This document shows, piece by piece, positions 5,092-16,040 of a stretch of 26,312 nucleotides of DNA. Both the position numbers and the translations under genes were made by a program. Each line of letters starts with the position of its first letter. Position 1 is the stretch's first letter. This stretch comes from a virus. Below the pieces are notes generated by a model. The model did no database searches, was not told where the DNA came from, and was given only the letters and a program-made list of their open reading frames with translations. The stretch is from positions 1 through 26,312 of IMG/VR virus record IMGVR_UViG_3300028615_000095; one strand, written 5' to 3'.

Positions 5092-5368
5092 AGTCATCAA
5101 CTCCCCTAACTAGGTCCTCATAATCCCTTAGAAGACAAAGGAGTTCTCCCAGAAAAGTATGTTCATAGCCTTCCAGGTAGCCCAGCAACCCCACTGTGGA
5201 CTCCCCTGATTGAGTCATTCCACAATAAGCAAGCTGTTGTAACTCGCCAACCTTTGCCAGATCTAAAAGTTCTTCTAGCATCTCTACCACTTCGTTATTG
5301 GGCGGCAATGATGTATTAACTTGCCTGAATGGCCTAACATTGTTTCTCGTACCATCTTTTTTATCCAA
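5084..5368 (-). CDS. Small acidic helical protein of unknown function
   Basis: The protein has 94 residues from a TTG start at 5368. AAGGAGG lies 6 bases upstream, within the last codons of the NTPase gene, so the two are coupled. A basic, disordered first 20 residues is followed by long leucine- and glutamate-rich helices (VVEMLEELLDLAKVGELQQL and FLGELLCLLRDYEDLV). It overlaps the DNA ligase start. The helical pattern resembles small phage proteins that bind partners, but no family is recognised. Confidence 0.6.
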   Translation of the reverse strand: MDKKDGTRNNVRPFRQVNTSLPPNNEVVEMLEELLDLAKVGELQQLAYCGMTQSGESTVGLLGYLEGYEHTFLGELLCLLRDYEDLVRGVDDYE

Positions 5369-10251: not shown

Positions 10252-10279
10252 TTTACAAATTGAAAAAGTGTGGTATCCT
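10252..10279 (+). promoter_or_regulatory. Sigma70-like promoter of the tRNA / structured RNA unit
   Basis: TTTACA (10252-10257) and TATCCT (10274-10279) are 16 bases apart, with GTGTGG before the -10, the same TGG context as the divergent promoter at 10142-10169. It would start transcription about 12 bases before tRNA-Arg and run through tRNA-Thr and the structured RNA downstream. Confidence 0.5.
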
Positions 10280-10297: not shown

Positions 10298-10375
10298 GCC
10301 CTCGTAGCTCAGATGGATAGCAGCAACGGCCTTCTAAGCCGTAAGTCGCAGGTTCGAATCCTGCCGGGGGTGCCA
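10298..10375 (+). tRNA. tRNA-Arg(TCT)
   Basis: A 78-base cloverleaf with CCA encoded. The acceptor stem has seven pairs including G-U at 1-72 and one inner U-G. The anticodon stem ACGGC/GCCGT holds loop CTTCTAA, giving anticodon TCT for AGA. The T arm GCAGG-TTCGAAT-CCTGC is standard. The D arm has one extra base on its 3' side and only three clear pairs, the one irregular element. Confidence 0.9.
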
Positions 10376-10437
10376 CCTTGAATAACAATTACAGCTAGTT
10401 TATTCGATCAAGTACGGTTGACACTAGCCGTGAACAT

Positions 10438-10513
10438 GCCCTGTTAGCTCAATTGGTAGAGCTACCGCCTTGTAAGCGGTAGGTTGGAGGTTCAAGTCCT
10501 TCACAGGGCACCA
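10438..10513 (+). tRNA. tRNA-Thr(TGT)
   Basis: A 76-base cloverleaf with a perfect 7-bp acceptor stem (GCCCTGT with ACAGGGC), discriminator A and encoded CCA. Anticodon stem ACCGC/GCGGT with loop CTTGTAA gives anticodon TGT for ACA codons. It lies 62 bases after tRNA-Arg and directly upstream of the structured non-coding stretch. Confidence 0.95.
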
Positions 10514-10550
10514 TCTACAAAACGCAACCGAACTGAAAAAGCATATCAAA

Positions 10551-10662
10551 CCCAGGCACTGTCCCGCCCTGACAACCTGGTAGGGAGGAGGGCTGAAGAC
10601 ATTCAGTCTCTTGTCGATACGGGTCAGCTTAAGCGACTGACTTCCCGGTGCTATGCACTGGG
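10551..10662 (+). ncRNA. Structured non-coding RNA, upstream domain (candidate)
   Basis: No gene fits here. Stems seen in order are CCAGG/CCTGG (10552-10556 with 10576-10580), or alternatively GCCCT/AGGGC (10566-10570 with 10589-10593); CTGAA/TTCAG closing the loop GACA (10593-10606); GTCAG/CTGAC (10623-10627 with 10637-10641); and a strong 8-bp hairpin CCCGGTGC/GCACTGGG with one G-U pair and loop TAT (10644-10662). CCCAG at 10551 could also pair with CTGGG at 10658 to close the whole domain. It may be the 5' half of the RNA at 10669-10802. Confidence 0.4.
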
Positions 10663-10668
10663 CCAACA

Positions 10669-10802
10669 ATTATAGGGAGCCTGACGAAAGAGTGCATCAC
10701 TCTAAGCTGGTCAGCAGACACCACATTATCACTTCAAGGTCAATTAGTCAAACAGAATCACTATTCCACTAACAACCTGAACAGGTGTCTCCTCCCTATA
10801 AT
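10669..10802 (+). ncRNA. Candidate novel structured RNA with three-way junction
   Basis: An 11-bp perfect stem closes the element: ATTATAGGGAG (10669-10679) with CTCCCTATAAT (10792-10802). Inside are two arms. Arm A is CTGAC/GTCAG (10681-10685 with 10710-10714) enclosing AGAGTG/CACTCT with loop CAT (10689-10703). Arm B has four successive nested helices: AGACACC/GGTGTCT (10716-10722 with 10784-10790), TTCA(A)GGT/ACCTGAA (10733-10740 with 10775-10781), TTAGT/ACTAA (10744-10748 with 10768-10772) and GAAT/ATTC with loop CACT (10755-10766). All are mutually compatible. It lies after two tRNAs, probably on the same transcript, and ends about 85 bases before the next gene. CTGACGA in arm A recalls a hammerhead core, but the required GAAA is missing. 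Family unknown. Confidence 0.6.
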
Positions 10803-10888
10803 GGGCTAAGTGTGTCCAAAATTTGTGGATAGTTATTATAATGAATAATATTTAGATTTTTTATAGATAAAAATAATAAGGTGAGAAC

Positions 10889-11092
10889 ATGAGGTGTGTA
10901 GCTTGTAACCGGATACTTTCGATTGAAGAGCTTATCGTAGACAGGCCAGGATTGAAGGAGCCAGAGGACCTTTGCTATGTGTGCAGGGGTTCAATAACGG
11001 TCAGTGAGTTTGATAACTATAACCCCAGGTTTAGGCAGTTCGAGGGTATTAGACCCGGCCTGACTAAGCCGTGTCACTCAAATGATGAGTAA
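10889..11092 (+). CDS. Small zinc-ribbon-like protein
   Basis: The protein has 67 residues. Two CxxC pairs (MRCVACN at residues 3-6 and LCYVCRG at about 29-32) form a likely four-cysteine zinc site, followed by a polar tail ending KPCHSNDE. AAGGTGAG precedes the ATG. Small proteins with this MRCxACN start are common in tailed phages with no proven role; a regulatory or nucleic-acid-binding function is a guess. The 86 bases upstream of the start are very AT-rich, with TATAAT at 10837-10842 but no good -35 box. Confidence 0.7.
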   Translation: MRCVACNRILSIEELIVDRPGLKEPEDLCYVCRGSITVSEFDNYNPRFRQFEGIRPGLTKPCHSNDE

Positions 11093-11990: not shown

Positions 11991-12043
11991 TGACTGTACC
12001 CCGACTGTGAATCTCCATAACAATTAATATCTAATAAAGGAGT

Positions 12044-12194
12044 CGCTTGGGTTGATCACCAAGCGTTGTATACCCCAAGGCAAGCAGCTTTGGGTTGGAC
12101 GGCCAATCAGAGTATGCCGTTTCTGGGCTTGGTAACAAGTCAATGTTTTTGGCCCTGTTTGGATTGAGGATTCTCGGTCGCAGGGCTTTTTATT
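12044..12194 (+). ncRNA. Candidate small RNA with five hairpins and a terminator
   Basis: This gene-free stretch has hairpins in a row: CGCTTGG/CCAAGCG (7 bp, 12044-12065); CCCAA/TTGGG (12074-12094); ACGGC/GCCGT (12099-12120); CTTG-GTAA-CAAG with a GNRA-type loop (12128-12139); and GCCCTG/CAGGGC (12152-12186) followed by TTTTTATTATT, an intrinsic terminator. GGGC at 12125-12128 could pair with GCCC at 12152-12155 instead, an alternative fold that would open the terminator. No clear promoter was seen close upstream, so it may be processed from the transcript that includes tRNA-Pro and bfd. Confidence 0.4.
12152..12194 (+). terminator. Rho-independent terminator after bfd unit
   Basis: Stem GCCCTG (12152-12157) with CAGGGC (12181-12186), with an inner GAG/CTC hairpin in the 23-base loop, then five T and TATTATT. 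It is the first terminator after the bfd-like gene. Confidence 0.5.
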
Positions 12195-12206
12195 ATTAAT
12201 AGAGAG

Positions 12207-12294
12207 CCACTACGCCTATCCTTTAAGCCTTGGCCATGGGCCGCGTAGCAAGCATGGCGACAGTGGAGCGCAACCTCAGTGGTTGTTTTTATTT
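12207..12294 (+). terminator. Hairpin domain ending in intrinsic terminator before tRNA-Met
   Basis: CCACT/AGTGG (12207-12211 with 12262-12266) and CTACGC/GCGTAG (12210-12215 with 12243-12248, sharing two bases with the first) can close a stem-loop over a GC-rich palindrome (GGCCATGGGCC). It is followed by CAACC-TCAGT-GGTTG (12271-12285) and TTTTTATTT, a clean terminator shape. The T run ends exactly at the first base of the mature tRNA-Met, so it may end the upstream RNA or be a processing signal. Confidence 0.45.
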
Positions 12295-13550: not shown

Positions 13551-16040
13551 GTGACTGTTAGACCTAGATCGCCTTTTCAAGAAAAATATTTAAAGGCAGA
13601 TGCTAGGGTAATGGTAGTAGGCGGTGCGGCGGGTTGCTTACCGGCAGACGCGGAATACTTATCGGAGAGTGGCTGGAGAAGTATTTCTGATTACAATGGT
13701 GGAAAAGTCGGAGTTGTACGCCTATCAGAATCTGATAAAGATTTTGCAGAGCTAAGCTTTGAAAAACCTAAAGGCTTTGTAAACCTTAGTTGCGAGGCCA
13801 TGAGGCATATTCGCTCCACAAGGTTTGGTATGAAGTTGTCTGACGAACACAAGGTTGTTTATTGGAATGACAACACACAAGGGTATAGGGTACTCCCATA
13901 CTCTGAGGTCTTACAACAGCATGACAAGTCCAAGACCAAGGGTTGGACCGGTAAAATTAAGACAAGCTTCAGCAAAGTATCGGGCAGAAATGGCATACCT
14001 CTATCAGAGGGCTATTTGAGACTACAAGTTGCAATAATGGCAGATGGCTGTTTCGTGCCTGAAGGTGCAAACAACTGCTGTGCTGTTTACTTATCGAAGG
14101 AGCAGAAAAAAGAAAGATTTGAGGAGCTTTGTAAGAAGTTTAACATTCCGTTCAAATACGCTGGCTGGAGGGAAACTGACAAGTATTCTACGGGCGGTAT
14201 TCATAAGTTTATAGTTTGGCCTCAGTTGAGGCAGAAAAAGTATACTGGGGTCTTTTGGGAAGCAACCCAAGAACAACTAGATATTATAGCCGATGAAGTG
14301 CCGCACTGGGACGGGTCTATAGTAAGAAATTCAACCTCGGACACGTACAGATACTTCAGTAAGCACAGAGAGAATGCGGATTTCATACAGTACGTTTTTT
14401 CCTCCCAAGGACGTACCGCTACGATAAACAAAGACAAAAGGGAAGAAGGCGACTGCGGGTTTACAGTAAATTATAATGCAGCGGGAGGCGGGTTTAGGTC
14501 ATTCGCTAATAAGGACGGCAAGTGTGAGGTAGTTACCGAGCCCACACCTGACGGAAGAAAGTATTGTTTTGAGACCAGCACAGGCTTCTTCTTAGCGAGG
14601 TATAATGGAAGAATCTTTGTTACTGGCAACTCTTCCAAGTCTTATGTCGGATTAATGCGACATGCTAGGTTTATAGAAGATCCCCATTACGTTGGGTATG
14701 TTATTCGTAAAAACGCGAGCATGATTATGTCAACAGGCGGCTTGTTTGACGAGGCCGTTGAGTTATACAGGGAAATAGAGCCTGGTATTGGTATAAAAAC
14801 CAGAGACAAGAAAATAATATTTCCGTCTGGTGCTCAGGTTGCGTTTAATCATTATGAAAATGACACAGCTGGCGAAGAGCTTTATCAAGGCTTGCAGATA
14901 ACAAACATAATGTATGATGAGGCAACCCAGGCTGATGAAAAGCACATTTGGTGGTTGCTTTCTCGTATGAGGTCAAAAGCCAATTATGATGGGTCGATGT
15001 GGTTAACATGCAACCCAGACCCGGATTCTTTTATAGCCAAGTGGATAGACTGGTATCTCATACCTGAGAAGGATGAGAATGGAAACAAGAACAAACATGC
15101 AGGGCGACCAGATCCTGCAAAAAACGGTGTTGTCAGATATATGCTCCGTAGGGGCGATGACATAGTCTGGGCAGACACGAAAGAAGAACTTATAGAAAAG
15201 TATCAAGTACCAGGCCGTGCCCCAGTCAGACCAATTTCTTTTATGGGACTTTTTGGTACTATTGATGACAACCCGCCGCTAAAAGAGATGAATCCAGACT
15301 ATAAGACAAACCTGGAGTCATTGCGGAGAGTTGAAAGGGAACGGCTACTGCATGGTAATTGGTATGCCAGACCAGAAGCGTCTGGTCACTTCAAAAGACA
15401 GTGGCTGGAAGAAGAGTTAGAAGAGCCCGCAGCTTGTGATATTGTTCGAACAGTGAGGGCTTGGGACTTAGCTGGGGAGTTAAAGTCGGAGACAAACCCT
15501 GATCCTGATTATATTGCTTCAGTTAAAATGTCGCTTTTGAGAAATGGGCGATACTTTATCCATGATGTCTTACGATTCAGAGCGAGGTTTGGTGACTGGG
15601 TAAACAAGATTGTAGAAGTTGCTAAAAGGGATGGAAGAAGGGTTGACATACTTATCCCGGAAGATCCCAATGCGAGTGCGAAGGCTGCATCCAGAATGTT
15701 AGTAAATGACATCATTTCTCACGGGTTTTACGCCAAATGTAAACCAACCAATAGATCTAAGCTGGACAGGTACCGGCCCTTTGCAGCCTCGGCCAAAAAT
15801 GGTAATGTGTCTATTCTAGTTGGCTGTGCCAATGATGAAGAAAACAATATACAAAATGATAATAACTTTTATTATGCGGAACAAGAAGTGTTTAAAGGCA
15901 ATGGCAAGGACAGGCACGATGATATGGTTGACTCTACAGCGGATGCTTTTACAGAATTAGCGGCCAAGCAGGTTATACCCACATTCAGTTTGCCAATGTT
16001 TTCTAAACAAAATGAGTTTAACAGGAAAGTAATAGGATAG
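13551..16040 (+). CDS. terL: Terminase large subunit interrupted by an intein
   Basis: The precursor has 829 residues from GTG 13551, with GAGGAG upstream. The first 28 residues end in VVGGAAG, the intein spans residues 29-360, and the protein resumes SSKSYVGL, so splicing restores the Walker A loop GGAAGSSKS and gives a protein of 497 residues. Walker B is IMYDEA (454-459), with motif III-like WLTCNPD soon after. The nuclease domain has Asp residues in RAWDLAGE, LIPEDPNA and the final HDDMVDSTADAF. The enzyme is the ATP-driven DNA-packaging motor that cuts concatemers and docks on the portal. No recognisable small subunit lies upstream; the 12486 and 12721 products are the only positional candidates. 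Confidence 0.95.
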   Translation: MTVRPRSPFQEKYLKADARVMVVGGAAGCLPADAEYLSESGWRSISDYNGGKVGVVRLSESDKDFAELSFEKPKGFVNLSCEAMRHIRSTRFGMKLSDEHKVVYWNDNTQGYRVLPYSEVLQQHDKSKTKGWTGKIKTSFSKVSGRNGIPLSEGYLRLQVAIMADGCFVPEGANNCCAVYLSKEQKKERFEELCKKFNIPFKYAGWRETDKYSTGGIHKFIVWPQLRQKKYTGVFWEATQEQLDIIADEVPHWDGSIVRNSTSDTYRYFSKHRENADFIQYVFSSQGRTATINKDKREEGDCGFTVNYNAAGGGFRSFANKDGKCEVVTEPTPDGRKYCFETSTGFFLARYNGRIFVTGNSSKSYVGLMRHARFIEDPHYVGYVIRKNASMIMSTGGLFDEAVELYREIEPGIGIKTRDKKIIFPSGAQVAFNHYENDTAGEELYQGLQITNIMYDEATQADEKHIWWLLSRMRSKANYDGSMWLTCNPDPDSFIAKWIDWYLIPEKDENGNKNKHAGRPDPAKNGVVRYMLRRGDDIVWADTKEELIEKYQVPGRAPVRPISFMGLFGTIDDNPPLKEMNPDYKTNLESLRRVERERLLHGNWYARPEASGHFKRQWLEEELEEPAACDIVRTVRAWDLAGELKSETNPDPDYIASVKMSLLRNGRYFIHDVLRFRARFGDWVNKIVEVAKRDGRRVDILIPEDPNASAKAASRMLVNDIISHGFYAKCKPTNRSKLDRYRPFAASAKNGNVSILVGCANDEENNIQNDNNFYYAEQEVFKGNGKDRHDDMVDSTADAFTELAAKQVIPTFSLPMFSKQNEFNRKVIG
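13635..14630 (+). mobile_element. LAGLIDADG intein in the terminase Walker A loop
   Basis: The intein has 332 residues, from Cys29 to Asn360 of the terminase reading frame. Block A is CLPADAEYLSESGW. Block B is LSDEHKVVYW with its His at 100. Two DOD endonuclease motifs follow: QVAIMADG (159-166) and EVPHWDGS (249-256), 90 residues apart. The end is GRIFVTGN followed by Ser361 as +1 nucleophile. The penultimate residue is Gly instead of the usual His, a variation known in some inteins. The intact endonuclease core suggests it still homes into intein-free terminase genes. It sits exactly between Gly and Ser of the P-loop, where no terminase could work unspliced. Confidence 0.93.

Follow-up and report, generated by a model that had tools for sequence, protein, structure and literature searches.

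Stable RNAs of phage tRNA clusters, such as rnaC and rnaD of T4, sRNA2 of PAK_P3, GOLLD and ROOL, are still without an agreed function. The T4 pair (species 1 and 2 RNA) has been without a known function since the 1970s, and PAK_P3 sRNA2, which lies between two tRNAs, is among the more strongly expressed features of late infection (PMC4933390). GOLLD and ROOL are often located near phage tRNA islands (PMC12286853). Within the T4 tRNA cluster, rnaC (139 nt, with a folding z-score of -4.6) and rnaD (119 nt) both lie directly 3' of tRNA-Arg, and sRNA2 of PAK_P3 is 134 nt long as annotated.

The locus described here comes from an uncultured phage represented by an IMG/VR virus record of 26,312 bases, and this whole stretch of analyzed DNA is referred to as the window. 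Judging from gene order (PNK, RNA ligase, macrodomain-like protein, tRNAs, terL, portal, protease, capsid and sheath, with names inferred from relatives) and from TerL similarity, the phage is placed with phiPMW, vB_PsaM_M1 and vB_PpS_SYP, to which its TerL is 49-52% identical; Pseudomonas phages of the PaP1/PAK_P4 type are more distant (TerL identity of about 38%), and PAK_P3 belongs to the same broad TerL lineage as the window. A TerL search of IMG/VR and GenBank phages found nothing closer, in lists from which the window's own genome records were perhaps omitted, and genome contigs searched with the RNA ligase, the 67-aa gene and TerL yielded no close relative. As a separate observation, an intein-like insert, some 330 aa long and close to the Walker A region, apparently splits TerL (window positions 13551-16040; GGAAG/CLPADAEYLS...FVTGN/SSKS). 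The features around the element are as follows.

10252..10279, plus strand: putative sigma70-like promoter, TTTACA-16-TATCCT with an extended -10, 18 nt upstream of tRNA-Arg
10298..10375, plus strand: tRNA-Arg (TCT)
10438..10513, plus strand: tRNA-Thr (TGT)
10514..10829, plus strand: noncoding gap of 316 nt after tRNA-Thr, closed in the MFE structure by the 8-bp stem P0 (10514-10521 / 10822-10829)
10551..10662, plus strand: four simple hairpins 5' of the element in the MFE structure (CCAGG/CCTGG; GGCTGAA/TTCAGTC; GTCAG/CTGAC; CCCGGTGC/GCACTGGG)
10581..10590, plus strand: alternative partner for P1, TAGGGAGGAG, perfectly complementary to 10789-10798 (CTCCTCCCTA)
10669..10802, plus strand: predicted three-way-junction element of 134 nt, MFE of -37.6 kcal/mol, z-score of -4.5
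10669..10679, plus strand: 5' strand of P1, ATTATAGGGAG, pairing with 10792-10802 in an 11-bp perfect stem
10681..10714, plus strand: arm P2, CTGAC/GTCAG (10681-10685 / 10710-10714) with apical AGAGTG/CACTCT (10689-10694 / 10698-10703)
10716..10790, plus strand: arm P3, AGACACC/GGTGTCT (10716-10722 / 10784-10790), with the less certain distal helices P4 (10733-10740 / 10775-10781) and P5 (10744-10748 / 10768-10772)
10792..10802, plus strand: 3' strand of P1, CTCCCTATAAT
10889..11092, plus strand: gene for a 67-aa protein with two CxxC pairs and weak PHROG matches only, the next gene, 87 nt 3' of the element

The element starts 155 nt after tRNA-Thr. The preliminary description had set it behind a promoter, tRNA-Arg and tRNA-Thr; both tRNAs were confirmed, and the promoter-like site agrees with the consensus at 9 of 12 positions. 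Its view that no reading frame explains the stretch also held, the only candidates being 53- and 63-aa ORFs with GTG/TTG starts; a family search with the ORFs overlapping the element gave no matches, and a minus-strand 81-aa ORF was rejected as a gene, its PHROG match covering the tRNA only and being judged spurious. Two further observations concern the surrounding sequence. tRNA-Thr is flanked by AGTACGGTTG (10411-10420) and CAACCGAACT (10525-10534), which are 90% complementary and could make a pre-tRNA bracket. A second noncoding hairpin-rich stretch (12000-12290, local z of -4.2) lies between tRNA-Pro and tRNA-Met, and a likely intrinsic terminator (GCCCTG..CAGGGC-TTTTT) was seen near 12158-12195.

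The 11-bp perfect stem with two arms that had been described earlier is present at exactly 10669-10679 and 10792-10802. Inside P0, which begins at the base directly after tRNA-Thr and by itself is short enough for chance, the MFE structure has the four simple hairpins, followed by the 134-nt element and one small hairpin. With the whole gap folded, the ensemble pair probabilities were mostly 0.88 to 1.0 for P1 (0.61 for its outermost pair), 0.91 to 0.99 for P2, 0.92 to 1.0 for the apical hairpin of P2 and 0.87 to 1.0 for P3. The four successive helices ascribed to the second arm are less secure, as its distal part (P4, P5 and a weak tip) belongs to the MFE structure yet is built of short helices. 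An internal duplication (10546-10579 / 10748-10779) was dropped, 4.8% of shuffles reaching its alignment score, and a hammerhead was rejected as well: CTGACGA fits the CUGANGA box, but the next stem is without a following GAAA and no Rfam match was obtained.

In the best reading, the element is another of the uncharacterised small RNAs that phages often carry beside their tRNA genes. Stated more fully, it may be a lineage-private, stable small RNA that is processed from the tRNA transcript and has its ends guarded by the 11-bp stem, a proposal to which we give about an even chance. The RNA would be the 3' portion of the transcript that holds tRNA-Arg and tRNA-Thr and would be freed by a cut during the maturation of tRNA-Thr, with the closing stem serving as the nuclease-resistant base of a compact three-way junction; because the junction would be protected by this stem, the RNA would be expected to build up during infection as a stable species, like T4 rnaC/rnaD and PAK_P3 sRNA2, and it might act in trans on the translation of host or phage. 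The tRNA genes immediately upstream, in the same orientation and with a promoter-like site, support this stable-RNA reading, as do the excess of the fold over shuffles, the high pair probabilities of P1-P3, the structured tRNA-cluster gaps of relatives and the T4 and PAK_P3 precedents in the same place; the lack of a homologue, the folds of equal z within genes, the absence of the T arm seen in rnaC and sRNA2, and the failure to find an intrinsic terminator before the next gene count against it. If expressed, the element would show that RNAs of this kind can also arise with no tRNA-like domain. A bolder version, which we consider doubtful, takes the closed 316-nt gap (10514-10829), in which the 134-nt junction occupies the 3' end, as the first member seen of a new class of phage RNAs that come from tRNA operons and carry no tRNA-like processing domain.

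The observation of the predicted fold is real, and the fold is unlikely by chance for its own gap; the preliminary description had likewise held it unlikely by chance. Its energy was tested against shuffled sequence, a check proposed there, and proved better than the controls (-37.6 against -22.9 +/- 3.3 kcal/mol; z of -4.5), with 0 of 200 shuffles as good. For the 375-nt gap, the best local fold was equalled in 6 of 959 gap shuffles, and 0.7% of gap shuffles contained a perfect inverted repeat that was 11 bp or longer and fitted within 150 nt; the z of the whole stretch 10514-10890 was -2.6. The claim of improbability did not extend to the window as a whole, where the element's fold is not exceptional and genes hold equally good ones. 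A z of -5.1 or lower was found at four plus-strand and two minus-strand places, several of them in coding genes, whereas a shuffled strand has 0.54 such places, and a plain 134-nt window scan gave a z below -4 in 4 of 782 windows. Since equally good folds occur elsewhere in the window, some of them in genes, fold energy by itself is no proof of function.

By sequence, the element is an orphan in the collections searched. In blastn searches, it matched only tRNA or AT-rich sequence among phages and had no homologue among plasmids; IMG/VR pattern scans with 26, 18 and 8+11 bases found no homologue, and the nine loci from the last of these scans showed no credible match to R1, a single-sequence covariance model of the element. 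When R1 was run on loci and on complete records from about 55 other phages, no second copy was found, and the best non-self match (18 bits, E of 0.1) was dismissed as chance. Because a single-sequence model is insensitive, these negative results exclude only recognisable relatives; as a rough control, another conserved RNA (the leader RNA described below) was readily found in the same loci, with a far more sensitive model of 11 sequences. With no homologue found, there is no evidence of selection on the element's structure, and a new family cannot be claimed from a single sequence that has no second member in any collection and hence no covariation support.

A serious rival is that the element has no function and is a product of chance, or a neutral remnant, in the rapidly evolving filler that separates tRNA genes. 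Such an origin would agree with the orphan sequence and the equal z-scores inside genes, and also with the number of perfect 11-bp inverted repeats that fit in 150 nt, three in the window and about one per shuffled 26-kb window; however, only about 0.6-0.7% of gap shuffles equal the element and the tRNA-cluster gaps of relatives are structured as a class, and we regard this alternative as somewhat unlikely.

The latter point comes from 76 noncoding gaps (90-420 nt) in or just after tRNA clusters, taken from tRNA-bearing loci of the window, its relatives and PAK_P3, and suggests that structured gaps are the rule in this lineage. The mean folding z was -1.8, with 34% of gaps below -2 and 20% below -3, figures that are an upper bound since some gaps hold terminators or tRNAs missed by ARAGORN. 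Several of the relatives' gaps are stem-closed elements without evident mutual sequence similarity (e.g., 1058-1156 and 5258-5355 of locus L064, and 5563-5697 of L016). Unrelated stem-closed sequences near tRNAs would be expected if the stem alone were needed, as in the other serious rival, in which the stem is cut in an RNase III-like manner or blocks 3' exonucleases, parting the tRNAs from the mRNA of the 67-aa protein, and the arms are functionless. The element does lie between the tRNAs and this mRNA in a single orientation, and the search for an intrinsic terminator from 10802 to the start of the 67-aa gene (10889) was negative, so that read-through into that gene is possible. Eleven perfect base pairs are nevertheless short for a bacterial RNase III, and the internal arms are predicted as well as the stem; we judge such a role in processing or punctuation to be somewhat unlikely as well.

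The survey also exposed one covarying element in the leaders of tRNA operons, with phiPMW among the carriers, and this is a stronger result than the 134-nt element itself. The conserved leader RNA lies upstream of the tRNA cluster in related phages, in a single copy per genome and, where inspected (phiPMW, SYP and L025), shortly behind a promoter of the TTGACA/TATAAT type; in phiPMW it is at 43438-43509 of KU862660. Its loci include L026:5144-5216, L027:6761-6832, L029:4752-4823, L018:7052-7124, L014:1437-1508, L006:6535-6606, L023:5370-5443, L025:6665-6738, L019:4044-4116, L033:5703-5776 and L008:4932-5004. An 8-bp outer helix, an internal loop (UGAUG.A opposite GUGAU), a second helix and a loop with an invariant UCUCCU make up the architecture. 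The leader RNA is clearly covarying: RNAalifold on the 11 sequences gave compensatory changes in 15 of 16 predicted pairs, and in the named structure 83.8% of cells were paired, with 52 double-change cells in comparison to 19.4 +/- 3.4 after shuffling and no more than 13 in slid controls. The conservation of the UCUCCU loop is biased because the sequences were picked partly by the loop motif, a bias from which the helix covariation is free, although trimming of the alignment was done by eye. This loop is complementary to a Shine-Dalgarno sequence (anti-SD-like), and in a count of sense-strand hairpin loops across all loci CTCCT occurred 15 times and AGGAG 0 times, the count including a few duplicates and one case in T4, with its cluster on the other strand. 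A covariance model (R2), built from the 11 sequences, matched 15 of 30 records, all with E below 1e-6, the model-building sequences matching by construction. R2 had no match in the window (unfiltered best score of 9.1 bits, E of 0.48), and the leader RNA matched no Rfam family.

Strong hairpin arrays with CUCCU loops were observed in other loci, in the stretch from the tRNAs to the gene that precedes terL (L002:1818-1997, L004:5520-5640, L005:4950-5070, L015:7131-7273 and L007:6190-6260), with a local z down to -8.7 (L002), and, in relatives that do not have the leader RNA, perhaps fulfil its function. Group I introns were also seen in related phages (L003:10210-10502 and L091:12784-13079).

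A conformational switch, in which 10581-10590 (TAGGGAGGAG) would compete with the 5' strand of P1 for CTCCTCCCTA (10789-10798) and control read-through or the downstream gene, is very improbable and not a serious rival. The perfect 10-bp alternative pairing is there, but it is predicted to be rare (probability of about 0.005), the fold in which it is forced is 5.6 kcal/mol worse, prefix folds have P1-P3 already formed once 10802 is transcribed, and no expression platform was seen.

A search with all Rfam 15 families, at gathering score and, over 1.3 kb, at E<=5 with permissive filters, returned only tRNAs and one spurious antisense-tRNA match. None of the families named for this search in the preliminary description (GOLLD, ROOL, HEARO and hammerhead) was matched; its idea of a compact, structured RNA beside the phage tRNAs stands as a prediction, and that of a shortened GOLLD/ROOL relative is not supported. 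Descent from GOLLD, ROOL or another known large phage RNA by shortening or divergence, for which the similar neighbourhood speaks (PMC12286853), has a negligible probability, since the lack of an Rfam match even at E<=5 rules out, as far as similarity can be detected, a relative of GOLLD, ROOL or HEARO and essentially refutes GOLLD/ROOL membership at that level, and since the closed gap measures about 316 nt vs >800 nt in many GOLLD members.

Compared with the known systems, the element is like T4 rnaC and rnaD in lying 3' of phage tRNA genes, in falling within 110-140 nt and in having no ORF, and like PAK_P3 sRNA2 in its tRNA neighbourhood and its 134 nt. It differs in its termini: a tRNA-like T arm (CCGGGTTCGAATCCCGG) forms the end of rnaC, and rnaD ends in GCGCACC(A), whereas the window element has neither a T arm nor a CCA-like end. 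Within the gap, tRNA models at E<=5 gave no match and a GGTTCGA-type loop is absent from 10514-10830, and rnaC and rnaD gave no covariance-model match to the element. PAK_P3 sRNA2 differs in being tRNA-like with a T arm, in its weak predicted fold (z of -0.3) and in having no credible R1 match. As an observation on sRNA2 itself, its 3' half with flank (L012:18434-18505) and an inter-tRNA gap of SYP (L008:7340-7398) share GCTAGGCTTG..GAGGTAG.AGCCCG..TCCAAAACCTC.CAC, readable as an H-type pseudoknot, and a 45-nt piece is 91% identical in KIL phages. GOLLD and ROOL are likewise structured phage RNAs near tRNA islands, but they are much larger and deeply conserved, and their covariance models do not match the window. 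The T arm of rnaC and sRNA2 could account for their processing; as it is visible in both and absent here, the element, if working, would resemble the stable RNAs of tRNA clusters in position and size while lacking that feature.
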